The notes under the pieces were generated by a model that worked only from the letters and a program-made list of their open reading frames with translations, had not been told where the DNA came from and searched no databases. From an uncultured Isosphaeraceae bacterium (lineage in GTDB: Bacteria; Planctomycetota; Planctomycetia; Isosphaerales; Isosphaeraceae): DNA of 64,000 nt. Position 1 is the first letter of the stretch. Each line of letters opens with the position of its first letter. The stretch lies in contig CAMFLR010000005.1 of NCBI GenBank assembly GCA_945957605.1, forward strand, positions 186,001 to 250,000, written 5' to 3'. A program made the translations under genes and the position numbers. Below, piece by piece: positions 2,783-63,365 of this stretch.

Positions 2783-4324
2783 ATGCCGGAGCCCGCCGAT
2801 CCGCTCGGATCAGACTCAACTATTCGCGACGCTCTCGAGCGCTTCGAGGAAGCCCTCTGGCAAGGTGCGAAGCCCGAGATCGACGCCTTTCTCGCCGCGA
2901 CAAATACTCTGCACGCTGATCAATTGCGGCGTGACTTCACCGCCGATCTCGTCTTCGCCGAGTTCGAATATCGCCTCAAGTCAGGCGAACCCGCGCGTGT
3001 TGAGGAATATCTAGCGCGCTATCTCGACGCTTTCACGCACGAGAGTCTCATCGACCTGATCGTCACCGAATGGTCGATTCGGCGCCGCAACGAAGCGACG
3101 CCGCCCGCCGACTCCGAATATCAAACGCGATTTCCTCGCGAATATGACGTTTTCCTGCGCGCACGCGAGCGAAGGTCGGTCGTACCGTCACACGGTGTCG
3201 ACTCCTCATCCATGCCGATGACAGGGGCGATCCCAGCGCCTCGCAGTTTGCCATCGCTGTTCGGCCGTTTCGAGCTGCGCGAAGTGATTGGCGAAGGTGC
3301 GTTCGGCATCGTCTACCGCGCCTGGGATCCTTACGCGCGACAACATCTCGCTGTGAAGATTGCCCGCGAGCACGCGCGAGGCGAAACCGAAGGAGCACGC
3401 ACGTTTCTCCGCGAAGCGCGAATCGCCTCGCACCTGAAACATCCCAACATTGTTCGCGTGCTCGAAGCAGGAACCGAAGGCGACGACAACACGCCCTATC
3501 ACGTCGCCGACCTGATTGAAGGCCGAACCCTCGCCAACGCAATTGCCGACGGCCCCCTGCCATTTGCGACGTCCGCCCAGTTGATGGCGACGATCGCCGA
3601 CGCTCTCTCGTACGCTCACGAACACGAGCGGCACGTCGTGCATCGCGACCTGAAACCGTCGAACATTTTGCTCGACGCCAACGATAACCCTCACCTCACC
3701 GACTTCGGTTTCGCCCAGCGCGACGGCGGCGAGCTCTCGGCCGTGGTGCTGCCCAAAGGAAGCCGGTTCGGCACAATCGCCTATATGTCGCCCGAACAGG
3801 CCCGCGGCATCGAAACCCTCGCTCCCGCCAGCGACATCTTCTCTGCAGGAATCATCTTCTTCGAGATGCTCACCGGCGAGCTTCCGTTTCGTGGTCGCGA
3901 GCCGATGTTGCTGGCCCAAATCATCAGCGACGACCCGCCTTCGCCCCGTCGGCTCAACGACGCGATCCCATCCAAGCTCGAAGCGATTTGCCTCAAAATG
4001 CTGGCAAAACGCCCCGAAGATCGCCATGGGTCGGCCGCGCGACTGCGCGACGACCTCCGCGATTACCTCGATGAAGTTCCCACCGACGAAATCATCACGG
4101 AAGAAACGAACACCTGGACGAATTTCAGCAACGAAATCCAAGGTCGGCCGCTTCGTTCGCTGGCGATCGCCTATTTCGTTCTCTCCGGCCTCATTGCAAC
4201 GCCAATTTTAATGTTCAACTATTTCACAAGAACCCCACCCGCCGCCGCCATACCTGCAACGCCGATCCTTCGCAGCGAGCCGATCGACCCGGTCACCGGC
4301 GTGCCCAGGATTGTGCCGCGGTGA
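2783..4324 (+). CDS. Membrane-anchored Hanks-type Ser/Thr protein kinase
   Basis: A 513-residue protein. Residues 1-130 are the helical N-terminal segment common in planctomycete kinases. The catalytic domain spans about 161-430: glycine loop GEGAFGIVY (170-178), ATP-binding Lys192, C-helix Glu211, HRDLKPSN with catalytic Asp289, DFG at 307-309 and the MSPEQARG activation segment. All key residues are present, so it should be active. One membrane segment (about 460-480) leaves a short Pro-rich tail of about 33 residues outside, with no sensor domain visible. It follows the sigma factor by 18 bp. Its stop lies 1 bp from the stop of the convergent rarA gene, with no terminator between. Confidence 0.93.
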   Translation: MPEPADPLGSDSTIRDALERFEEALWQGAKPEIDAFLAATNTLHADQLRRDFTADLVFAEFEYRLKSGEPARVEEYLARYLDAFTHESLIDLIVTEWSIRRRNEATPPADSEYQTRFPREYDVFLRARERRSVVPSHGVDSSSMPMTGAIPAPRSLPSLFGRFELREVIGEGAFGIVYRAWDPYARQHLAVKIAREHARGETEGARTFLREARIASHLKHPNIVRVLEAGTEGDDNTPYHVADLIEGRTLANAIADGPLPFATSAQLMATIADALSYAHEHERHVVHRDLKPSNILLDANDNPHLTDFGFAQRDGGELSAVVLPKGSRFGTIAYMSPEQARGIETLAPASDIFSAGIIFFEMLTGELPFRGREPMLLAQIISDDPPSPRRLNDAIPSKLEAICLKMLAKRPEDRHGSAARLRDDLRDYLDEVPTDEIITEETNTWTNFSNEIQGRPLRSLAIAYFVLSGLIATPILMFNYFTRTPPAAAIPATPILRSEPIDPVTGVPRIVPR

Positions 4325-4325
4325 T

Positions 4326-5663
4326 CTAAATACCGTTGTCTGCGCCTGGCTGCTCGTCGAAGTAGTCGCGGCCGATCAGACTCTGCGGCAAGCAAGGCAT
4401 TTCGGTCTTCGCGGCCGGATCATCATGCGCGTACCGATAGCCTTCACCATAACCAACCGCCTTCATGAGCGGTGTGACCGCGTTGCGCAAATGTGGCGGC
4501 ACCGGTTCGCGTGCAGTGGCCGTCGCATCGGCCGCGGCCTGAGAATAAGCTCGCTTTACCAGATTCGATTTCGGCGCATTGGCGAGATAAATCGTCGCCT
4601 GCGACAGCGGAAACAACCCCTCAGGCAAACCGATGAGTTGCACGATGTGAGCCGCCGCCGATGCCTGCACCATCGCCTGAGGATCGGCAAGTCCAACATC
4701 TTCCGACGCCAGAATACAGAGCCGTCGCGCAATGAAAATCGGATCAGCCCCACCTTCAATTAGCCGCGCCAGCCAGTAGAGTCCCGCATTCGCATCGGAG
4801 TTTCGGAGTGATTTGATGAGCGCTGAGATCAGGTTGTAGTGCTCTTCGCCGCCCTTGTCATAAGCGAATCGGGCTCGTCCAATCGCCTCGATCAACGTCT
4901 CGCGTGAAATGAGGCGCGCACCGGATTCATCGGGCTCAGTCCCCTGCACCGCCGTTTCGAGCGCAGTCAGCGCCACGCGTGCATCGCCGCTGGCCGCTCG
5001 TGCAAGATGCTGCAAATCGTCGTCTGCGACAGCGGGCTTTAGCTTCGCCAGGCCGCGTTCGTCGTCGCTCATTGCGCGCTGAAGAATCTTGGCGATATCG
5101 GTCTGATCAAGCGGCTTGAGCATGATCACTTTAGCACGCGAGAGCAACGCCCCGTTCACCTCAAACGAGGGATTCTCGGTCGTCGCGCCAATGAGCGTCA
5201 CAGTGCCGTCCTCCACCGCCGGCAAAAGCGCATCCTGCTGCGCCTTGTTGAAGCGATGAATTTCATCGATGAACAGCACGGTCCGCTTACCGTGCCGCAT
5301 CCGGTCGTTCGCCGCGCCGATCGCTTCGCGCAAATCCTTCACGCCTGAAAGCACGGCTGAGAGCGAATGAAACACCGCGTTCGACTCGCTCGCAAGCAGC
5401 CGCCCGAGCGTCGTTTTTCCCGTCCCTGGACCGCCCCACAAAATCAGCGACGGCAAGCTTCCCTTCGCACTCACAAGCCGCCGCACGAGTGCTCCAGGCC
5501 CGACAAGATGCGTCTGCCCGACGTACTCCGCTAGCGTTTGCGGCCGCATCCGTTCGGCCAAAGGCGCATGCCGTGATACCGGCTTCACCGGCGGCTCGTC
5601 GCCACCAAGGTCGAAGAGATTGGCATCGTCAAAGTCGCGAGACGGCGGCCGTCGGCTTGCCAT
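4326..5663 (-). CDS. rarA: Replication-associated recombination protein A (RarA/MgsA AAA+ ATPase)
   Basis: A clamp-loader-like AAA+ ATPase of 445 residues from the chosen start. RarA acts at stalled or gapped replication forks. Visible are the RarA-type N-terminus ([22 protein letters not shown]), Walker A GGPGTGKT (77-84), Walker B FIDEIHRF (131-138), sensor 1 [13 protein letters not shown] and the C-terminal tetramerisation domain. The frame stays open upstream to 5747, but the extra 28 residues are not family-like; ATG 5663 (MASRRPPS) gives the usual length, though no strong Shine-Dalgarno site supports it. The gene is divergent from the giant TPR gene. Confidence 0.92.
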
Positions 5664-5950
5664 AATCGGAAAATCACACTCGCATGAAAAACTGGGTTGA
5701 TTGAAGCCGGTTGCTCTGGACGACCGTACATCAATTCGGCCTCCCAATCATAACACCGCCGCGCCCCTTTCTCCAACCGTTCAACCACATCTAAATCCGC
5801 ATAATTCTCGCTCGACACCTGTCGGATCAGACCATTGACGAAGGAATTCGGCGCGGCTATTCTCCGGATTGTTTTTGTGTTTGTCGATGCGTGCCCAGGG
5901 ACGCAAAGCTCGGAAGCGGCTGAACCCACACGGCGGGGGAAGAGCGAGCC
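5664..5950. promoter_or_regulatory. Divergent promoter region between rarA and the giant TPR gene
   Basis: This 287-bp spacer must carry promoters for both genes. It includes T-rich sequence at about 5868-5886 and, just before the giant gene, GGGACGCAAAGC (5898-5909), which recalls the conserved core of class I cyclic-di-GMP (GEMM) riboswitches. The rest of the GEMM fold is not convincingly present, so riboswitch function is only a possibility. GGGGGAAGAG at about 5936-5944 is the likely ribosome-binding site for ATG 5951. Confidence 0.4.
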
Positions 5951-8900
5951 ATGCAAGTGCATCGTAATTTTATGTTTGCGTGTTTGAATGGCGTTTTTGT
6001 CGCGATGCTTGCCCTCGCGCCAACCTGGGCTCAGGATGCCGATTCCGACGGCGGAAACGACTCTGCCGAACGAAAAACGATGGAACGGTTTCAAACCGTA
6101 CTCGAACGTAACCCCAGACGCGGCACCGCGCTCGACCGCGTATACGGTTATCACGTCGAACACGGCACGCTCGATAGCCTCGTAAAACGGTATGACGATC
6201 GTATCAAAGCCGATAAATCCGATGGCGCAGCCTGGCTGCTGCTCGGGCTCGTCGAAGCTCAGCGCGGGAAAGATGCCGCAGCAGTCACCGCCTTTCGCGA
6301 AGCCGAAAAGACGCGTGCCAACGACTCGCTTGCATCGTTCTATCTGGGGCAGGCGCTCGTGCTCGTCGGCCAGCCCGATCAGGCCGTCGATGCATTTGAA
6401 CGTGCCTTGACCAAGAAGCCGATTCGGGCCGATTTGCTCGAAGTCTACCAGGCGCTGGGACGAGTCCACCAACGCGCCCGCCGCGCCGAAAAAGCGCTCG
6501 CCGTCTGGACGAGGCTTGAAGCGGCATTCCCCGATGACACGCGCGTCCGCGAGCAAATCGCCGCCGCGCTCGCCGAGGAAGATCAACCGGCTCAGGCGCT
6601 TGCACGTTACCAGACGTTGATTACTGATGTTCGCGACGAGTATCGCAAGGTACAACTCGCGATGGACGCGGCCGAGCTGAAGGTGCGGCTTGGCAAGGCG
6701 CCCGAAGCGCTCGAAGACTTCGGCAAGTTGCTGGGCAAGCTCAATCCCGACTCGTGGATGTTCAAGGAAGTGCGCAGGAAGATCGAGGAAGTGTTCCTGC
6801 GGAACGACGACCTCATCGGCCTCGCCAAGTATTACGAAGGCTGGATCGTCAAGACGCCGGACGACGTCGAGGCAATGGCACGGCTGGGCCGAACCTATGC
6901 CCAGCTCGGCCGGGCAGCTGATGCGCGAAGTTGGCTCGACAAGGCCGTGAAGCTCGCACCGACGCGCCGTGACCTCCGCATGACGCTCATCGAACAGCTC
7001 GTGCAGGAAAAGAAGATCGACGACGCCGCGGCCGAGTACGAGAAACTCGCCAAGACTGACCCCGGCAATCCCGACATCATTCGCGAGTGGGGCAAGCTGC
7101 TGTTGCGCGACGGCTCGAAGCCGATCGACCAGCGCAAGGCCGCCGCGGCCGCCGTGTGGAAACGGCTCGCGGGTGATGACGTGAAAGACGCCGTCACAAT
7201 CGCGCAGGCCGCCGACCTCTTTCGTCAGGCCGAAATGGTCGACGACGCGATCGCGCTCTACAAGCGGGCCATCGCCCTCGCGCCCGATTCAGCGCAGTAC
7301 CGCGAATATCTCGGCGAATACTACCACCAGCTCAAGCGCAGGGACGACGCTCTGGCCACCTGGCGCACCGGCGTTGGCAAAACAGCCGCCGAGCTGGGAC
7401 GGCTCGGCGAGGTGCTCGCGGGCTTCGGCTATCGCCAGGAGGCCCTCGACCCGCTCTTGCAAGCGGTGAAGCTCGCCCCCGATGATTTCGACCTCAGGCT
7501 CAAACTCGCCGATCTTTATCTGCAGCTCGATCGTCCCAAAGACGCACTCCCCGAAGTGATGGCCGCGCGCAAGGCGTCGTCCGGGCCCGAGCAGGCGGAA
7601 GCGGTACTTGGCCGCGAGATCAAGACGTACCAGGCGAGCAAAACGCTTGGTGACGAGATCGCCAAGCTTCAGGCCGATCTCAACGCGGGCAAAGACGCAA
7701 CCGGCGAGCGCTGGTCGCGGCTGGCGAGTTTCTATGAGGCCGACGGTAAGACGAACGAGGCAATCGTCGCTGCAACCAGCGCGACGAAGGCCGACCCGAA
7801 GTCGATTCCGTCTTGGGTTGCACTCGCGCGGTTGCAGGAAGGCTCGGGCAACCTCGGCGGCGCGGTCGATGCGAATCACACGCTCGCAGGACTCGATCGT
7901 CGTGCGCGTGCCGACTATCTCTCCGCCATCGCGCGACTTGAATCGCGGCTCGGGCGCAAAGCCGAGGCGCTGAAGGCCGGTCGCGACTTGCTCGCTGCCG
8001 CACCCGGGAATTCGGACCGACTCCAGGAATTCGCCGACCTTTGCTTCAGCCTCGGTGAAAACGACGAAGGTCTTGAAACCCTCCGGCGCTCGGCGCGAAG
8101 CAACCCGACCGACCCCAAGGCCACAACCACCCTCGCCGAAGCCCTCGCCCGCCAGTTCCGCACCGAAGAGGCAATCGAGCTCTTCTGGCGCTCGTTTGAT
8201 CGCACGAAGGAACTCGATGCCAAGCTCGGCATCGTCTCGCGTCTGACCGACCAGTACCTCCAACGCAACCAGTTCGATCGTCTGATCGCCCGGCTCGAAC
8301 GTGAGCTGCGCGAGCCCGATCGCAAGCGCGAGCTGACAATCTGTCTCGCACAGGCGTATCAAGCGGCGGGCGACCTCGGTGCGGCTCGTCAGCAACTTGA
8401 ATCGCTGCTCACAGCGAATCCGCGCGACGCGGCGCTTCTCTTCCAGCTCGCCCAACTCGCCGAAACCGAGGGGGATGTCGCATCCGCCGCGCGCTACCAA
8501 CGCCAGGCGGTTGATATTGCTCCGACTCCCGAAGCTACAGTCAAACTGGCACAATTGTTCATGCGTGCGGGAGAGATCAGCGAGGCCGAAGTGGTCTGGT
8601 CGAAGCTCGCGACGAATGATCAGGAGGCGGCTCGAGCCATCACCGCCATCGATAGCTTGCTCACCAACTCGAAGTACGACACGGTTGTCAGTCTCACGGA
8701 GCGGATGCTGCTCAAGAATCCCAAGGATTGGGAGGTGCTCTACCGCGAGGGCTTTGCGCTTCAAAACAAGGGAAAAATGCCCGAAGCGTTGAAGAGATTC
8801 CAGGCGATTCTCGACCTGAACGGAAACGACGACGACCTCTCCGCACTCATGAAGGCGAGGCGTAAGAATCCGTCGGGCACGTCCGGTGCCCAGGCGGGTG

Positions 8901-11900
8901 TGGTTGCCAGCCGGAACACCTCGCCATACGTGTTCCCGGCCTACACTCGCATCAACAGCGCACAGCAGCTTCGCTCGGTCGTTGGGCTCGATAACCGCTA
9001 CTACTTTGGCACCAACTACATCTGGTCCCCGACCGATTTCGGCTCGGCTCGCGAAGGCGCGATCGCCTGGCTTTACGCCGAGTCTCAAAAGGACAAGAAC
9101 GATTCCGAAGCGTGGACCAAAGCCCGGCGCGCGGTGATCGATTCGGGCAAGGCCGATAAACGCACGCTTTGGGACTGGTACTACCTCCAACTGATTCGCA
9201 ACGACAACAAGGAAATCTTCAAGGCATCAGCCAGTCTCGTCCGGGCCGACGGCGGCGACACTGCCGCGCTCATGGCATTCCTCACTGCGACCGCAAACCG
9301 CGGCGTCGATGCTTCCCAAATGTACGTCCGCAGCACGACCAACGCCAAAACCGATACAACGCCCCCGCTTCCTCCCGCCGATCTCCAACTCGTGCTCGAT
9401 GCGTTTGACTCCCTCAAGAAGCGCCGCCCCGATCTGCTCTTGCCTAACTTCGTGACGACCGTCAACACCGAACTAAAGCGTGCCAAGCGCGAGAACGATG
9501 TGGCTGCCTTCTACAAGGCTGCGATGGCCAGTGCGAACACGCTCGAAACCGTGAGCTCGGCGCTCGACTACGCAGCCGATCAGGGAAGCCTCGACGATCT
9601 CTTCTCCCTCGCCGACAAGTACGAGCGATTGCAACTCGCCAATCCTCGGGGGAATCTTTCGAACCGCCCGTTAGCGCAAGGCCTCGCCACTTCATTCGGC
9701 CGGGCGATGGGAGTGAAGGCCGACACAAAGGATCACGCTGCGATCCTGAAAATCCTCGACCATTACCTTGCGTCGTCCTGGAAGCCCGACCAGATGGCGG
9801 CGAGGCAGAAGTCGTCGACGTCTTCGATGGTGCGCGGTCAGGCTGCGTATTTTTACGTGTACATGACCAAGCCCTCGCCGACGCAGAACACACGCTACAC
9901 CCAGGTCGATTTCCCAAGTCCCAACGCCTATTTCGACCTTGGAGCGATCCAGCTGCTCCGCAATACCTACGAAATCTTCAAGCGCGACGACGTTGTGAGC
10001 GATCTGATGAATCGCTTCCGCAGCGATATCACCAAGGCGCCCGCAAACGCGAAGATCTTCCCCACGCTCGCGCTCACCTATCTCCTTTGGTGGAATGACG
10101 AGAAGGAAGAATCGCTCCGCGAATTCGGGCGCGGGTGCGACCTGGTCAAGAACGACATCGACCTCCGGCTCAACTTCGCCGAGATGCGTGCCCAGCGCGG
10201 CGAAGCGGCGGAGGCACTCGAGACCGTCGATCAGGTCGAACCGCTCGACCAGAAAACGATGCAGCGTCGTGAAACCCTGGCGCTCCGGCTGTCGGTTCTG
10301 TCGGGCGATATCCAGCGCGCCCGCAAGGCGGCCGAGCGGCTATTCGGTCTCCGGCTCGATAGTGACACGCAAATCCAGCTTGCCGGCCAGATGAACCAGC
10401 TCGGCATGCACGACCTTTCCGAAGCCGTGATGGCTCGCGCCCGGCGGTCGGCGGGCGGCAACAGCACCGTGCTTGTCAACTTGATGAACCAGTACCAGAG
10501 CCAGGGTAAGGCAGATATCGCGGTGCAGGTTGCCAACCAGATCATGCGCCAGACGAGCGGTTCGCGCAATGCTCAGCCGGGTTCGGTCACGGTCAACGAT
10601 CAGGCCCGCATGGCAGCCGTCCAGCTCTTCTCACGCTCGGGCAAGCTCAAGGATCTCATCGCCCGCGCCGAAGCACAGCTTGAATCATCGCCGAACTCGC
10701 CGGCCTTGCTGCAAACGCTCGTCGACTACTACCAGGCCGATCAACAGCGCGACAAGGTCAAGGCAACCTACGCGCGGCTCGCCAAGCTCAAGGCCGAAGA
10801 TCCGCGTGCACTCTTCCAGATCGCCATCGACCTTTCCCGCGCAGGCGCCTCGAACGAAGCACTCGAGCTCTACCGCACTTCGCTCAAGAAAGATCCATCG
10901 CTCTTCGCCAACCAGTATTACGAAGTGCAGCGAGCCTTCCAGCAGGCCGGCAAGACTGACGAACTGATAAAGCTTTACGACTCGATGGACTTCAAAACCT
11001 TCCGCAACAACCCGTACGTGATTCAAAACACGATCAACGAGTTGATGCAGAACGAAAAAACGCGCGATCAGGCAATGGTTCTCTTCCGCAAGGCCTGGAA
11101 AGAACTGCCGCAGGTGCGCACTCAGCTCATCGGCAACCTCTATAACGATGAATTCTGGAAAGTCGCGGAAATCTTCGACTACGCCCGCGAAGCCGTCATC
11201 CCCAAGCCTGGCGCAGCGATCAACGATGCCTGGGCCGGCCTTGAGGAGATCGACTCCTACGGCGGCGACGGCACGGTGAACGGCGTGCTCACGCGCCTCT
11301 TCCAGGCGGCCGAGCGGCAGAACAAGCTCGACACGCTCGTCAAGGAAGTCGATGCGGCGTTGGCACGCACACCCGAGTGGACGGGCGGCCGTGCGCTTTC
11401 CGCGATACTCAAGGCGAAGCGCGGTCAAGTTCAGGAAGCACATAAAGACTTTGAAGCACTGCTTTCGTCCGGCAAGGAAATCCCTTCGAGCGCGCGCATG
11501 CTCGTCAGCCAGGAACTGGGCAAGATCGCCTCGCTCAAGGATATCGAGCTGAAGCTGCTCGAAGAGGGTGCGCTCGATAACGAGATGGCACGCAATAACG
11601 GCTTCCAGTATGGACCGGGGCGGCGGCTCGTCACGCTCTATCAGAAGAATGGCCGCGTCAATGACGCCCGCGACCTGTTGATGAAATACGCTGCAAATCG
11701 CGGCAATTTTGATGGATACGACCCGTCGTATGCCGCATACCGGCGCATTCAGGATGGGATGACGGTTGCTCAGCTCCTCAACGAACTGGGTTATCCGGCC
11801 GAAGCTGCGCGGTTCTACAACGATCTCGCGAACGATCCCGATTCGATCACGAACGCCCGCCAGTATTACGGCAACTCTGACCAGATCCTGCTGCAGGTTC

Positions 11901-56827: not shown

Positions 56828-59800
56828 TCATCGCCGACGACGCTTGATCGCTGCTTTGGTGACTGCGGTGGTGTTAACCGTATAGTTGATCGCGTCGAGT
56901 CCGCCGAGGCTCAGGCCGGTTGCGACCACAACCTTGTGCTGACCAATCTGCTTGTTAAGGAACTTCGCACGACCGCCAAGATACGACAGCGAATCGCCAG
57001 CGATCACGCCCGTCAACGTTCGACTCGTGATGTGCGCGAACTTGGTGCCGTCGTAAACCTTGTCCGCAACCGTGACCGAACCCAAGATCGCCAGTGGCGT
57101 GATGTTCGCCGTGGTAATGGTCGTACTGTTTACCCGATAGTTATTCGCGTCCAGCCCGCTGAGATACAAGCCGCTCCCGAAGACAAGTTTGTTGGTGCCC
57201 ACATTCTTGTCGCCGAACGTGGTCGTGCCGCCAACGTAGCTCACCTGATCCCGGACCAGCACACCGGCGAGCGATGCCCCCGATCGCGTGGCGATCATCG
57301 TACCGTCATATACCTTGCCCAGCGCCGTGATCGAACCGACGAGCATGGCCGGATTGACGACGAGGCCAGCCGGATTGGCAATATACGTGATGTTGTAATT
57401 GGCAAGGCCGGGACCAGTGGCGGCGTTGGGAATGAGGCTGTATGTGCCCGCCTGATAGTAACCGCTACTCGACAACGGGGCGTTCGTGAGGAACGTCACG
57501 CCGGTGACGTTAGTGTTGCCATAAAGCGGACCGCGGACCGAGAAACTCGTCGAACCGAGTGCGGAGTTAACACCGCCGAATCCGTAAGTTTGCGTCTCAG
57601 TATTCGCGGAGATAAAGAGCCGAGCCTTCGATACGTATTGAATGAACGCGTTTGACGTGCTACCGGCGATATCGTTGCCGCCGGAATAGATGGCGAGAAC
57701 CCGATGAGAGCCCGCGTCAAGCAAGCTCGGAGCAGCAATCGAAGCCGTGCCATTTGTGAGTGCGACAGGTAGTCCGTAATTCACGCCGTCGAGCACGACC
57801 TGAACGGTGCCTTCGGTCGGTGCGGTTCCTGAAACCAACTCTGTTGTGTTCGCCGTCCAGGTGATTGCTTTGTTGTCGCCGAATGTGCTGGTGGACGTCG
57901 ATGATGAGACGATCGTACGCGACTGTGCAGCCGTAACATTGAGGGAGAGACTCGACACCTTTCGAAGGAGACCGGCGGCGCCATCAACGAAGATAAGACT
58001 TCCATCGGTGTCAAAGGTCATTGCATCGAGGGAGTCAAGATTTGTCGCCAGCGGTCCCAATCCATCGCCATTGAATCCACGCACTCCGCTGCCAACAACT
58101 CTTGTGACCTGCCCGCTCTGTCCCACTAGCTCATCAATTTCCGTGGTTGTTGCATTTCCAATGAGAAGTCTGCCTTTGGGATCCAAAGCAAGACTGATGG
58201 GTGCCAACGGACTCGTAATGAACGCGCCCGGATAACTGGGAAGCGCGTCCGTCCCTGCGACCTGGACAATCAGTCCACTGTCTTTGACGACCTCGCGAAC
58301 ACGTCCATTTCCATAGTCGGCAATGAAAACGTTGCCAGCGTTGTCAACAGCGACATCTTGCACATCGTTCAGTTCCGCACTGACCGCGGGAATATCGTTG
58401 CCGTTATAGCCCGAAATCCCATTACCTGCGACCGTGACGATTTCGTCCGTCGCTTTAACGAGCTCGCGCTCCCGCGAATTCAAAAGATCGACAAAGAAAA
58501 GATTACCGCTATCGTCGAATTTGATGCTTGTCGGCCAATTCAATTGAGTGCTGGTTGCCGGTAGGTTGTCTCCGTTGAAGCCGGCCGTTCCATCACCTGC
58601 GACGGTAATGATTCTGCCTGTGGCTTTCACGATTTCGCGGATGCGATTGTTTTGAACATCCGCGATGAAGATGTTCCCCAAGGCATCGATGGCAAGCCCT
58701 TGGGGATCGATGTTCGCAGCTGTGGCCAAGATGTTATCGCCGTTGTAGGAGCGAATTCCAGTTCCCGCGACTGTAATGATTTCACCTGTCCCCTGCACGA
58801 TTTCGCGAATACGTCCATTGCCTGTGTCGGCAACGAAGATGTTCCCTGAACCGTCGACGGCGACTCCGGAGGGTTGGTTGAATCTCGCGTCGGAGGCAGG
58901 AATGCTGTCGCCTGTGTATCCGGCAGCACCGGTGCCCACTACCGTGATTACTTGCCCGGTTGCTCTCAGAACTTCACGGACTCGATGATTAAAGGTGTCT
59001 GCAATGAAAAGATTTCCCGAGTCGTCAATCACCACGCTTCGGGGAAGCGTGAGAGTCGCGCTTGTCGCTGGGATACCGTCACCGTTGTATTGGGACAGAT
59101 AGGCATAGGCTGGGTCACGGGGACCACCCGCGACAGTAACAAGGTTTCCCGTCGCTTTCACCACTTCGCGAATCTTGTCATTCTCATTATCGGCAAAAAA
59201 GATGTTGCCGTCTTTATCGACCGCTACGCCGAGCAGTTCTGAAAGATTTGCGCTTGCCGCTGGAATATTTGAGCCGCTGTCACCATAAACTCCTGTCCCT
59301 GCGAGCGTGATAATCTCGCCTGTTGACTTCACCAACTCGCGAACGCGCTCTCCCACTTCGGTAAAGATGATGTTTCCCTGAGCATCAACCGCCAGGCCGT
59401 ACGGCAGACTTAGATTCGAGCCAGCGATTGTAGTGATTTGCCCGGTTGCTTTTACGACTTCCCGAATTCGATTGTTCTGTGTGTCGGCGATCAGTAAGTT
59501 GCCATCTCCGTCGAATGCGAGACCATTCGGATAGCAGAGTTGCGCGCTCGTGGCTGGGATATTGTCGCCGTTGTAGCCTGGAGTATCGCTACCCGCGACA
59601 GTAACAATTTGCCCTGTCGCTTTGACGACTTCGCGAACGCGACTGCTATACCAAGAGGTGAAAAAGACGTTGCCATCGCTGTCAATCGCCAGATTCGTCG
59701 GCTCAAGGCTGGCACTTGTTGCCGGGACGTTCTCACCAGCATCACCGGCTGTTCCATTTCCAGCGATGGTGATTATCTGCCCCGTGGCCTTCACGACTTC

Positions 59801-60388
59801 ACGGATGCGGTAATTGCTAGAGTCTGCGATATAGAGATTGCCATCGCGGTCGAACGCGATCGCGAATGGCGCGTTCAACGCGGCAGACGAGGCAGGAATA
59901 TTGTCGCCGTTGTACTGACCGTACACCACGTTTCCCGCGATGGTTGTAACCGAGTTACCAAAGCTGCTCGAAGCGAAATTGGAACCGTTGCCCGCATAGA
60001 CCGCTGAGAAAGTATGTGAGCCCACGCCCATTCGATTGGTCGTCAGCGTCGCTGTGCCATACGAATCAAGCGTAGCGGAACCCAAAGTGGTCGAACCATC
60101 GTAGAAGGTGACCAACCCAGTCACTTGCACTGAATTTGGATTCGAGTCGTCCACAACTTTCGCGGTCAGGGTAACGGGCTGACCATAGATGGCGGAGGTT
60201 TGTGGGCTTATTGAGAGTGTCGTGGCTGTGGCTTGCAAGCTTAGGAGAGTGCGGTTTTCTAACCCGTCAACCGTGGTGCAGAGGTAGAATCGCTGCCGAA
60301 AACGCGTCGCCTTGGCGAGAGTTCGCCGCGTACGTCGCCCACAAAACATGCTGAGAATATTCCTGTTGTAGTTTTTAGTGCCAGTCAT
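56828..60388 (-). CDS. Large NHL-repeat surface protein with LEPR-XLL-like motif, Ig-like and YDG-type repeats
   Basis: 1186 residues. A basic N-terminus leads to DGLENRTLLS (41-50), a variant of the LEPR-XLL motif found at the start of very large planctomycete surface proteins. An Ig-like domain (about 54-145) precedes about twelve NHL-type repeats (about 147-810) with the core GNLFIADxxNNRIREVVKATGQI. A second Ig-like domain follows (about 820-930), then repeats with KVYDGT and GLDANNYRV/GLDAINYTV, typical of MBG/YDG domains. It ends in KRRRR. No Shine-Dalgarno site is clear before ATG 60388. A secreted or surface-bound role is inferred from the motif. Confidence 0.85.
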   Translation of the reverse strand: MTGTKNYNRNILSMFCGRRTRRTLAKATRFRQRFYLCTTVDGLENRTLLSLQATATTLSISPQTSAIYGQPVTLTAKVVDDSNPNSVQVTGLVTFYDGSTTLGSATLDSYGTATLTTNRMGVGSHTFSAVYAGNGSNFASSSFGNSVTTIAGNVVYGQYNGDNIPASSAALNAPFAIAFDRDGNLYIADSSNYRIREVVKATGQIITIAGNGTAGDAGENVPATSASLEPTNLAIDSDGNVFFTSWYSSRVREVVKATGQIVTVAGSDTPGYNGDNIPATSAQLCYPNGLAFDGDGNLLIADTQNNRIREVVKATGQITTIAGSNLSLPYGLAVDAQGNIIFTEVGERVRELVKSTGEIITLAGTGVYGDSGSNIPAASANLSELLGVAVDKDGNIFFADNENDKIREVVKATGNLVTVAGGPRDPAYAYLSQYNGDGIPATSATLTLPRSVVIDDSGNLFIADTFNHRVREVLRATGQVITVVGTGAAGYTGDSIPASDARFNQPSGVAVDGSGNIFVADTGNGRIREIVQGTGEIITVAGTGIRSYNGDNILATAANIDPQGLAIDALGNIFIADVQNNRIREIVKATGRIITVAGDGTAGFNGDNLPATSTQLNWPTSIKFDDSGNLFFVDLLNSRERELVKATDEIVTVAGNGISGYNGNDIPAVSAELNDVQDVAVDNAGNVFIADYGNGRVREVVKDSGLIVQVAGTDALPSYPGAFITSPLAPISLALDPKGRLLIGNATTTEIDELVGQSGQVTRVVGSGVRGFNGDGLGPLATNLDSLDAMTFDTDGSLIFVDGAAGLLRKVSSLSLNVTAAQSRTIVSSSTSTSTFGDNKAITWTANTTELVSGTAPTEGTVQVVLDGVNYGLPVALTNGTASIAAPSLLDAGSHRVLAIYSGGNDIAGSTSNAFIQYVSKARLFISANTETQTYGFGGVNSALGSTSFSVRGPLYGNTNVTGVTFLTNAPLSSSGYYQAGTYSLIPNAATGPGLANYNITYIANPAGLVVNPAMLVGSITALGKVYDGTMIATRSGASLAGVLVRDQVSYVGGTTTFGDKNVGTNKLVFGSGLYLSGLDANNYRVNSTTITTANITPLAILGSVTVADKVYDGTKFAHITSRTLTGVIAGDSLSYLGGRAKFLNKQIGQHKVVVATGLSLGGLDAINYTVNTTAVTKAAIKRRRR
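57950..59950 (-). repeat. About twelve tandem NHL repeats within the surface protein gene
   Basis: The unit is about 55-60 codons: IPATSAxL, an LAxDxxGN segment, an ADxxNNRIREVVKATG segment and ITVAG. Most copies are close in sequence; copy 4 lacks the first third, and the last two are the most diverged. The count may support two beta-propellers. Confidence 0.85.
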
Positions 60389-60784: not shown

Positions 60785-61747
60785 TTATGGCCAAAAAACA
60801 ACACCAGGCTCGCGAAGCTTGATGCTCCAGAGCGTTCCGCCTGCCGTGACGAACAGAGTCTTCAAATCATCGCCACCGAACGCGCAGTTCGTGCATTCAT
60901 CGCGGGGAATGGGGATGAGTTCAAGCGGCTCACCTTCGGCCGTGAAGACGTAGATTCCAGCCGTCGCCTTGTCCTGGATTTCGAACGGCGGATTCGGACG
61001 ATTCAAACCAGCGGCGACGAACAATCGCCCTTTGCTGTCGATCTTGATCCCATCCGGGCCACGCGTTTTGCCCCAGTCTTGCAGCAGTTTTTGCGACTTC
61101 AGATCGACCGAGCCATCGTCGTTGCGGTCGAATCGCCAGAGTTTGCGTGCTCCGCCTTCGGTGTTGTTATTGTTATCGGCGACGTAGAGAAACTTGCCAT
61201 CGAGGCTGACAACCAGGCCGTTCGCTCGTTCGACCTCGCGGCCAATCACACGCGATACTTTGCCATCGGGATCAATCCGGTAAACGCCTTCGACCGTCTT
61301 CCCAGCAGCATCGCGCATTTCCATCTCTGCGCGACCACCATATTGCGGGTCGGAGAAATAAATGCGTCCCTTGGCGTCGAGAGCCAGGTCATTGGGCTGG
61401 TTGAATCGCATACCGTCGAAGCGATCGGCCAGCACTGTGATCTTGCCATCGAGTTCGCGACGAACGATCCGCCGGCGCTTGGCATCGGCGATGACGATTC
61501 GCCCCTGACGATCGATCAGCAAACCATTCGACCCCGAGTCTTCCATGAAGACCGATTGTTTGCCATCGCGCGAACGGAGATTGACGTTCCCCTCGCCGCT
61601 GGTGAGCAGGCCGAGCCTCGCATACCAGGCCGGTCCTTCGCCGGCTCCAGTCTCTTGCAAGAGCTCAGGCTTCGCGCCGGGGGCGATGATCGTGCTTTCG
61701 GGCGCGATCGAGAGGATTGTGAGAAGGAGTGATGATGTGAAAATCAT
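60785..61747 (-). CDS. Secreted SMP-30/gluconolactonase-like protein (second copy)
   Basis: 320 residues with a short signal peptide (MIFTSSLLLTILSIA). The propeller shows ETGAGEGPAW (metal Glu), SNGLLIDRQGRIVIADA, FNQPNDLALDAKGRIYFSDPQYGG, RANGLVVSLDGKFLYVADN and GPDGIKIDSKGRLFVA. It shares family but not close sequence with the protein at 20288-21310. It lies 19 bp after the dimethylformamidase-like gene and is probably in one operon with it. Confidence 0.87.
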   Translation of the reverse strand: MIFTSSLLLTILSIAPESTIIAPGAKPELLQETGAGEGPAWYARLGLLTSGEGNVNLRSRDGKQSVFMEDSGSNGLLIDRQGRIVIADAKRRRIVRRELDGKITVLADRFDGMRFNQPNDLALDAKGRIYFSDPQYGGRAEMEMRDAAGKTVEGVYRIDPDGKVSRVIGREVERANGLVVSLDGKFLYVADNNNNTEGGARKLWRFDRNDDGSVDLKSQKLLQDWGKTRGPDGIKIDSKGRLFVAAGLNRPNPPFEIQDKATAGIYVFTAEGEPLELIPIPRDECTNCAFGGDDLKTLFVTAGGTLWSIKLREPGVVFWP

Positions 61748-61766: not shown

Positions 61767-63314
61767 TCAGGACTTCTTAAGAGCGCGATTCAGCAAATTC
61801 TCAGTAATGCGTTGAACCCGCGCATCAGGTCCATGGGGCCGCGAGAAGTGTGACCAGGGGAGCGTATGTCCTGGTGGCGATGACAATCCCTGCGCCCAGA
61901 AGATCGTCGCTGCGTTGAAGACGAAGCTTCCCTTGGGGCCGGGATAAATCGTAGCGGTCCACTTCTGAGGCGTTTGCCCGCCAACCCACGCCGTTCCCGC
62001 CGCCACCACTTCGAGTCCCGGAATCGCCGCAGGGTTACCGTGGTACTCCCAGCCGATCAATCCCTGAATGCGATCGCCCGCCTTCACGCCTGTTCCTTCG
62101 AACATCCAGTGATCGGGTTTGGTGACGATCCAGTCACCGCCGCCGTTCACGGGTTCGACATTGCGCGCACCCATCAACAGACCTTCATCGGGACCACGCT
62201 CGGGGAACGGACCGTGATCGCGATGGCGATTCTTGGCGTAGTCGTTCTCAGCCCCGTAAGGACCGCCGCGGAACATGATCCGATTCGGCTGGCCATCGCT
62301 CGACTCACGGTAAGGCGTCACCCAGCAGACCGCGTTTCCGGAGAGGAAGAGCAAATTCACACCGGCGTCGCGCATTTTTTCGACGCTATGAAACTGGCGG
62401 ATATCCCAGTATTCATCATGGCCGACGCTGATGAACGCCTTGCATTTGAGGCCATGATCGGGTGTGAGCATGTCGCTATTTGTGCAATAGCTTACGTCAT
62501 AGCCGTGCTGTTCGAGCCAGTATGCAAGTGGGAACTCAAACGGCAAGAATTCGCCCGAGCCGACGGTTAATGGATCATCGACCACGCCGTTGTGCTGAGC
62601 CTCGCGGGCATAGGGGCGGTCGAAACTGACATCGGCCCAGGGGCCTTGCGTCCCCTTGGGATGCGTGTAAACCGAATAGTTATTGGGCCAGCGGTTGTAG
62701 GCTTGCCAGGTGTTGTCGGAGCATTGAAATAAGATATCGGCGGGACGATCGTCGCGGACGATGAAAACGACATAACTCTGCCAGTAAGGTTCTTTCGACT
62801 CATCAACAATCGTCGTCAGTCGTCCGAGATAGACACCGCTGGGCCAGTCGCTGGGAATCGTGATGGTGGTCGTTTTGTTCCAGTGGCATTCGTGGATGTT
62901 TTTGAGACCAGGTTTGGGCGTCTCCTGCGTTTTGCCATCGAATGGGCCGAGCGTGGTCATCAACCGCGCACCTCGGCCGCCATAATATCCCATCCGAAAA
63001 ATCTCGACCCGAAACGGCCGCGCGGGGTCGCTCGATACGAACAGGTCAAGCGATTCTCCCGCCTTCACCGATTGCTTCGAGCAATACCCTTCGATATTCG
63101 GCGAGCGAAATCCGTCTTTATCGACTCGCACACGCGTCAGTTGCCAGTCGAGCGAGCCTTCGCGCTTGTTCTCGTCAACAATCAATGACGAAGCCGTTGG
63201 TTCGGCCGCCTGCACCGATTTCGTGGAACCGGTCCAGGCCAGAAAGGTCGAAGCGAGGCCGCCGGTCCATTGTAGAAACGACCGGCGATGCGGGCGTGTG
63301 ATTGGATCGTTCAT
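61767..63314 (-). CDS. N,N-dimethylformamidase large-subunit-like protein, Tat-exported
   Basis: 515 residues from ATG 63314; the frame is open to 63365, but the short form starts the Tat signal (RPHRRSFLQWTGGLASTF) near its N-terminus. A beta-rich region (about 60-190) with PFRVEIFRMGYYGGRGARL is followed by a glutamine-amidotransferase-like fold with SVGHDEYWDIRQF and LLFLSGNAVCW. This matches the C-terminal domain of the large subunit of N,N-dimethylformamidase. Many planctomycete relatives exist without evidence for that activity, so the substrate is open. Confidence 0.82.
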   Translation of the reverse strand: MNDPITRPHRRSFLQWTGGLASTFLAWTGSTKSVQAAEPTASSLIVDENKREGSLDWQLTRVRVDKDGFRSPNIEGYCSKQSVKAGESLDLFVSSDPARPFRVEIFRMGYYGGRGARLMTTLGPFDGKTQETPKPGLKNIHECHWNKTTTITIPSDWPSGVYLGRLTTIVDESKEPYWQSYVVFIVRDDRPADILFQCSDNTWQAYNRWPNNYSVYTHPKGTQGPWADVSFDRPYAREAQHNGVVDDPLTVGSGEFLPFEFPLAYWLEQHGYDVSYCTNSDMLTPDHGLKCKAFISVGHDEYWDIRQFHSVEKMRDAGVNLLFLSGNAVCWVTPYRESSDGQPNRIMFRGGPYGAENDYAKNRHRDHGPFPERGPDEGLLMGARNVEPVNGGGDWIVTKPDHWMFEGTGVKAGDRIQGLIGWEYHGNPAAIPGLEVVAAGTAWVGGQTPQKWTATIYPGPKGSFVFNAATIFWAQGLSSPPGHTLPWSHFSRPHGPDARVQRITENLLNRALKKS

Positions 63315-63365
63315 CGCAATTCTCTCTTTCGTTGGAACGGCGAGCCTCGCTTCAGTCATCTGCAT

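Follow-up and report, generated by a model that had tools for sequence, protein, structure and literature searches.

The protein of 1186 residues that carries an LExRxLLS leader and is encoded in the window (the whole 64,000-nucleotide stretch analysed here) is probably exported through a planctomycete leader and not by the Sec or Tat route, and we infer for it a surface-exposed or matrix-associated location and a role in binding. The leader would open with a short, strongly basic stretch that appears to be disordered, after which comes (L/I/V)-(E/D)-x-L-E-x-R-x-L-L-(S/T/A). Some export or sorting machinery would read this leader, and cleavage directly behind L-L-(S/T/A) may then remove it. 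The mature part would then begin with an Ig-like domain, followed by two NHL propellers serving as a rigid interaction surface, with Ig-like, MBG-like and YDG modules forming a stalk behind the propellers. More speculatively, electrostatic attraction between the basic tail and anionic polymers of the envelope could keep the protein attached. Within its class the protein is ordinary; the interest lies in a class-wide leader that lacks a hydrophobic core and is found on dozens of proteins per genome. Two leads come from the class, a basic tail and a swap of leader and signal-peptide-like starts on the same NHL fold, and the swap makes the question of what the leader does testable.

The reading frame begins with a predicted ATG and is given with its stop codon in Table 1. 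If translation began instead at a second ATG, residue 14, the leader would be 29 residues long and closer to the class median. Pfam matches of the protein were NHL (E 9.4e-41), TEN_NHL, two stretches of Big_3_5 and two of YDG. The earlier note had described a LEPR-XLL variant followed by about twelve NHL repeats and MBG/YDG repeats, and this layout was recovered, with the motif read from the sequence, twelve blades counted by a repeat script, both YDG stretches found by Pfam and the MBG-like stretch recognized by eye.

Table 1. Features of the leader-bearing protein in the window
Feature	Residues	Coordinates	Strand	Basis
Open reading frame, LExRxLLS-leader protein, 1186 aa		56828..60388	-	open reading frame
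Basic leader, net charge +9	1-42	60263..60388	-	charge and hydropathy computed
LENRTLLS motif	43-50	60239..60262	-	sequence
Big_3_5 (Ig-like) no. 1	62-148	59945..60205	-	Pfam
Twelve NHL blades	149 to about 818	57935..59944	-	Pfam, repeat script, AlphaFold2/Foldseek
Big_3_5 (Ig-like) no. 2	about 824-915	57644..57919	-	Pfam second stretch; boundaries by eye; model strands 825-903
MBG-like stretch	about 919-1016	57341..57634	-	by eye; low model confidence; no separate Pfam match
YDG domain 1	1019-1090	57119..57334	-	Pfam
YDG domain 2	about 1097-1181	56846..57100	-	Pfam second stretch; boundaries by eye
Basic C-terminal tail KRRRR		56831..56845	-	sequence; C-terminus reads ...KAAIKRRRR

The NHL score of 136.3 bits, against a Pfam cut-off of 20, identifies an NHL propeller protein. 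Blades start at residues 149, 207, 263, 320, 361, 418, 482, 539, 595, 652, 709 and 763, and their 11 spacings are 54-58 residues, except for one of 41 and one of 64. Twelve blades would suit two six-bladed propellers, an arrangement which leans mainly on the repeat count because the AlphaFold2 model of the whole chain is poor (mean pLDDT 58.6, pTM 0.39). In this model, residues from about 173 to 714 are mostly well predicted, except 421-443, and pLDDT is below 50 for residues 1-53 and 920-1186. Foldseek matched the model to NHL propellers, such as that of NHLRC2 (6g7w, TM by target 0.81, rmsd 3.5), and the best solved relatives by sequence were a teneurin-like protein (9ifo, E 8e-57), SOQ1, NHLRC2 and the Pizza designs. 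NHL blades are thus common to the window protein and to NHL and teneurin-type propellers (PF01436, PF25021); however, its blades are flanked by bacterial Ig-like domains and other teneurin parts are absent from its Pfam matches. A PADLOC match to PD-T4-6 (E 4.8e-10) was rejected as a cross-match of the propeller, because the matched residues 496-587 cover NHL repeats only.

The combination of motif, Ig-like domains, NHL blades and MBG/YDG modules is a local family, because relatives repeat the architecture. A protein of the same bacterial family (L098, genome G012) combines the motif and NHL with four stretches of Big_3_5 and two of YDG, and its C-terminus reads RGGRPPHQKQ. The combination, which the earlier note had not seen described, is thus a recurring one. 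Proteins of Aquisphaera insulae (L095/L240), a species of Isosphaeraceae, the family to which the source of the window very probably belongs as well, carry the motif, Big_3_5, NHL and MBG_2 in place of YDG, with the end VKPKGRR in L095. The motif with Big_3_5 and NHL recurs in L094, and in L246 and L250 the translations, read by eye, contain the motif, Ig-like domains and NHL.

The leader motif is present in the source genome (8.8 Mb, 33 contigs) beyond chance, because the exact DNA pattern for L-E-x-R-x-L-L-S, CTNGARNNNCGNNNNCTNCTNTCN, had 10 genome matches against 0 for the reversed pattern, and a looser pattern had 66 against 28. Collecting N-termini with this motif, as the earlier note had proposed, yielded 48 motif ORFs in this genome, extracted from 40 fetched stretches and the window. 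In these ORFs the motif starts between residues 15 and 58 (median 28), and the mean net charge upstream of it is +5.5. The E, R and hydrophobic positions of the motif were fixed by the collecting regular expression, and positions that this expression left free are also conserved, with E/D at -2 in 37 ORFs, L/I/V at -3 in 33 and S/T/A at +7 in 45, S/T at the last position being favoured by some of the DNA patterns. The window protein reads VDGLENRTLLS at residues 40-50 and so has the E-x-L-E-x-R-x-L-L-small core with D replacing E. A leave-one-out model, built with the window sequence removed, ranked the window protein first (10.8 bits, E 0.025; runner-up 6.7 bits) among 1202 stretches, which were the six-frame translations of at least 30 residues of the window. 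Alignment A1 comprised 43 N-termini including that of the window protein; 44 rows had been gathered, and one (L012) was left out with its motif-like string 500 residues into an 836-residue frame. Within A1 the window protein ranked 36th of 43 by leave-one-out score (17.5 bits; median 24.1), and it is therefore a divergent member of the class.

Applied to this genome at E 0.1, an A1 profile found at least 51 places. At E 0.01 it matched 28 to 65 places per genome in six relatives. Across the phylum, 59 of 148 genomes had matches at E 0.1, a tally that includes false positives. Among 30 loci (L150-L179), five (L158, L167, L175, L177 and L179) have the motif at least 280 residues into the frame, and L160 has no clear motif. 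The leader serves unrelated protein bodies: when 10 motif proteins were scanned with Pfam, 4 had no match at E 1e-5, and the 6 with matches differed in what stands behind the motif (Calx-beta, PLD, Ig-like, SBBP propeller, matrixin and a Vgb-lyase-like propeller). Motif paralogues also occur as neighbours in this genome (C2/C9), at 7539-10463 and 10532-13297 of L117 (975 and 922 residues) and at 3549-7010 and 7509-10970 of L129 (1154 residues each), with leaders very alike within each pair.

The motif itself has been published, and the window protein adds a further member to a class that is already on record. According to the part of PMC8567305 that concerns this signal, Studholme et al. in 2004 reported a planctomycete cell-surface signal in R. 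baltica, RRLxxExLExRxLLA, which is Pfam family PF07595, and Tuwongella immobilis has 52 motif proteins of the form LxLExLExRxxP. The same part of that paper states that 20 of these 52 were detected, 8 of them exclusively in the SDS-soluble fraction and 12 not exclusively there. Hence, the proposal of the earlier note that the motif may be a planctomycete-specific sorting or processing signal was right in kind, but these reports (PMC8567305, in part) take away its novelty. Like PF07595 (Planc_extracel), the class in this genome has a basic stretch, then E/D-x-L-E-x-R-x-L-L-small, on many extracellular-type proteins per genome. However, with 150 of 260 candidates scored, at least 49 places matched PF07595 at E 10 and none exceeded the cut-off, the best score being 24.7 bits against 25.5. 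The window protein is absent from the 49 places listed, and scanning it directly did not give a match to PF07595 either, even at E 10. The motif here is thus an Isosphaeraceae variant below the Pfam cut-off for PF07595. An L-E-x-R-x-L-L core near the N-terminus is also common to the window protein and NCBIfam NF012209, LEPR-8K (LEPR-XLL), and that model likewise gave no match to the window protein in a direct scan at E 10 or among the 16 genome matches listed. Two places in the genome exceed the LEPR-8K cut-off (C1:1049976-1050035 and C9:218490-218531); PF07595, too, has its best match at the second of these, and hence the two models overlap.

Motif N-termini have no hydrophobic core. None of the 48 in this genome contains a 15-mer with mean hydropathy of at least 2.0, in a search that reached 45 residues past the motif start, compared with 53 of 181 control genes on the same fetched stretches. 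The highest Kyte-Doolittle 15-mer of the window protein over this range is 0.97, below what a Sec or Tat core would give. In three other genomes of the family, none of 33 motif N-termini reached 2.0, and none of 50 did so with a better gene caller (60 loci fetched). No motif N-terminus passed a rough Tat-like test (twin Arg and a 15-mer of at least 1.6; 0/48). Moreover, none of the 48 has a lipobox, because Cys is missing from the stretch of five residues that begins at motif position 8. The possibility that the motif is a signal peptide of the Sec or Tat type in disguise, or that a wrong start codon hides such a signal upstream, draws on the slight resemblance of LL(S/T/A) plus a small residue to a signal-peptidase site and on start codons that are only predicted; however, the absence of a core from all motif N-termini, together with a stop-to-stop frame that adds just three codons 5' of the ATG of the window protein, makes it very unlikely. 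A signal of the PEP-CTERM/exosortase type (TIGR02595) shares with the window protein a basic cluster at the extreme C-terminus, whereas the window protein has neither PEP nor a hydrophobic helix (maximum 15-mer 1.73 in the last 45 residues), and such a helix, with a 15-mer reaching 2.0 in the last 45 residues, occurs in 1 of 43 class members.

Comparisons of NHL proteins suggest what stands in the place of the leader elsewhere. A first cross-phylum scan with the whole protein yielded 20 stretches and no relative. A search of 84,980 genomes with the NHL stretch gave 242 relatives, and after exclusion of four cut at the 5' end, the best 80 comprised 71 from other phyla and 5 from Planctomycetota. 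Among the 71, 61 have a hydrophobic 13-mer (at least 1.8) in the first 90 residues, compared with 6 of 76 random internal stretches; a threshold of 2.0 gives 58/71 and 4/71. By phylum, as taken from the record titles, hydrophobic starts are found in 24 of 31 from Acidobacteriota, 30 of 32 from Bacteroidota and 7 of 8 others among these best 80, and none of the 71 5'-complete proteins has the motif. Three of the five Planctomycetota relatives among the best 80 have the motif (Aquisphaera, isolate BP6.bin28 and Schlesneria) and two have a hydrophobic start. Lone NHL propellers in the phylum (30 loci, L064-L093) included 13 closed NHL frames of up to 500 residues by pattern. The motif is absent from all 13, and 12 of them contain a hydrophobic 13-mer within their first 150 residues. 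The source genome itself encodes a lone NHL propeller of 355 residues (L320 806..1873, C1) with a signal-peptide-like hydrophobic start, MLFTLLFALFLPGDSALS. Because this propeller and the motif NHL protein share a genome, the NHL fold accepts either N-terminus, motif or hydrophobic, even within one genome. This swap is consistent with a leader acting in place of a signal peptide, or with one that directs the larger proteins elsewhere.

According to our reading of the leader as an export signal, a dedicated machinery may exist, and known leader-cutting systems are candidates for it. Giant adhesins of the LapA type have an N-terminal retention module cut by LapG, and double-glycine-type leaders are cut by C39 transporters. 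Hence, the class might be type I secretion substrates, in which the N-terminal element is either an LEPR-XLL-like retention or processing module and the target of LapG, or a leader of the double-glycine type that a C39 transporter processes. In its favour are weak HlyD-like matches in 18 of 19 motif-bearing genomes, a Peptidase_C39 in 5 of the 16 class genomes that have motif hits, and the LEPR-XLL motif reported (PMC10868602) for a giant protein of Vibrio whose C-terminal domains are of the RTX type. Over the phylum, Peptidase_C39 was found in 60 of 148 genomes. However, LapG (PF06035) was found in none of 148 phylum genomes at E 1e-5, Peptidase_C39 was not found at the same E in the other 11 of the 16, this genome included, no HlyD exceeded the curated TIGR01843 cut-off in the 19 motif-bearing genomes, and RTX is absent from the Pfam scan of the window protein. 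These searches leave LapG, C39 and type I HlyD unsupported as leader machinery and speak against known leader-cutting systems as a general partner, and we therefore give little credence to type I secretion of the class. An exporter or peptidase for the leader was not found in the open-licence literature searched, and we know of no leader cleavage site.

The protein might instead be intracellular, with the basic leader and tail as nucleic-acid- or membrane-binding elements. This is improbable. Both ends are indeed basic and a classical signal is lacking, but the folds behind the leader are typical of extracellular proteins, most NHL relatives from other phyla have signal-peptide-like starts, and some of the T. 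immobilis motif proteins were detected exclusively in the SDS fraction (PMC8567305). Export through the leader accordingly stays the favoured reading.

The end KRRRR, which the earlier note considered odd for a surface protein, agrees with a trend among the class members of this genome, although it is a tendency and not a rule, and it is modest in three relatives. The net charge of the last 20 residues of the window protein is at percentile 1.0 of its own internal 20-mers. At least three K/R/H in the last six residues occur in 13 of 43 motif proteins of this genome versus 12 of 181 controls (p 8e-5) and in none of 36 controls with strongly hydrophobic starts. A stricter gene caller gave 8/34 versus 14/186 controls (p 0.009) and 2/57 with hydrophobic starts (p 0.005). 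Within-protein percentiles of last-20 charge agree with these counts, with motif proteins of this genome at the 82nd on average, controls at the 56th and hydrophobic-start controls at the 59th; with the stricter caller, the values were 0.824 for 34 motif proteins, 0.545 for 147 controls and 0.598 for 68 acid-matched controls.

In three other genomes, a first count of tails with at least three K/R/H in the last six gave 5/33 versus 15/129 (p 0.38). The naive ORF caller probably took shadow ORFs there, because just 7 of the 129 controls had hydrophobic N-termini. With a caller based on codon-position GC, the three relatives gave 11/50 versus 10/100 (p 0.04, uncorrected, with several statistics tried) and no excess over the few hydrophobic-start controls (2/9). 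By percentile, 49 motif proteins of these relatives averaged 0.821, compared with 0.688 for 84 controls (p 4e-4, again uncorrected and with several statistics tried) and 0.754 for 47 acid-matched controls (p 0.037, uncorrected). Taken singly, without correction, G010 was significant (p 0.002) and G024 (0.089) and G029 (0.098) were not. NHL proteins of other phyla had a charge percentile of 0.69 overall and 0.81 in Bacteroidota alone; the latter value perhaps reflects type IX sorting domains, whose ends are likewise basic. For the five from Planctomycetota, of which three carry the motif, the average was just 0.60. No description of the basic-tail trend was found in the open-licence literature searched.

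A wider conjecture, which we regard as doubtful, is that Planctomycetia export dozens of proteins per genome independently of Sec and Tat by a bipartite signal, composed of the basic E-x-L-E-x-R-x-L-L-(S/T/A) leader and the basic C-terminal tail, and that this signal would have taken the place of the signal peptide at the time when the lineage acquired extracellular domain arrays.

The genes around the window protein have starts of other kinds. Upstream on the minus strand, the product of 61767-63365 has a Tat-like start by eye and no NCBIfam match, and that of 60785-61747 has a Sec-like start by eye and a ScyD/ScyE-type match below the cut-off. Downstream, the product of 56689-55265 has a start that looks Sec- or Tat-like by eye.
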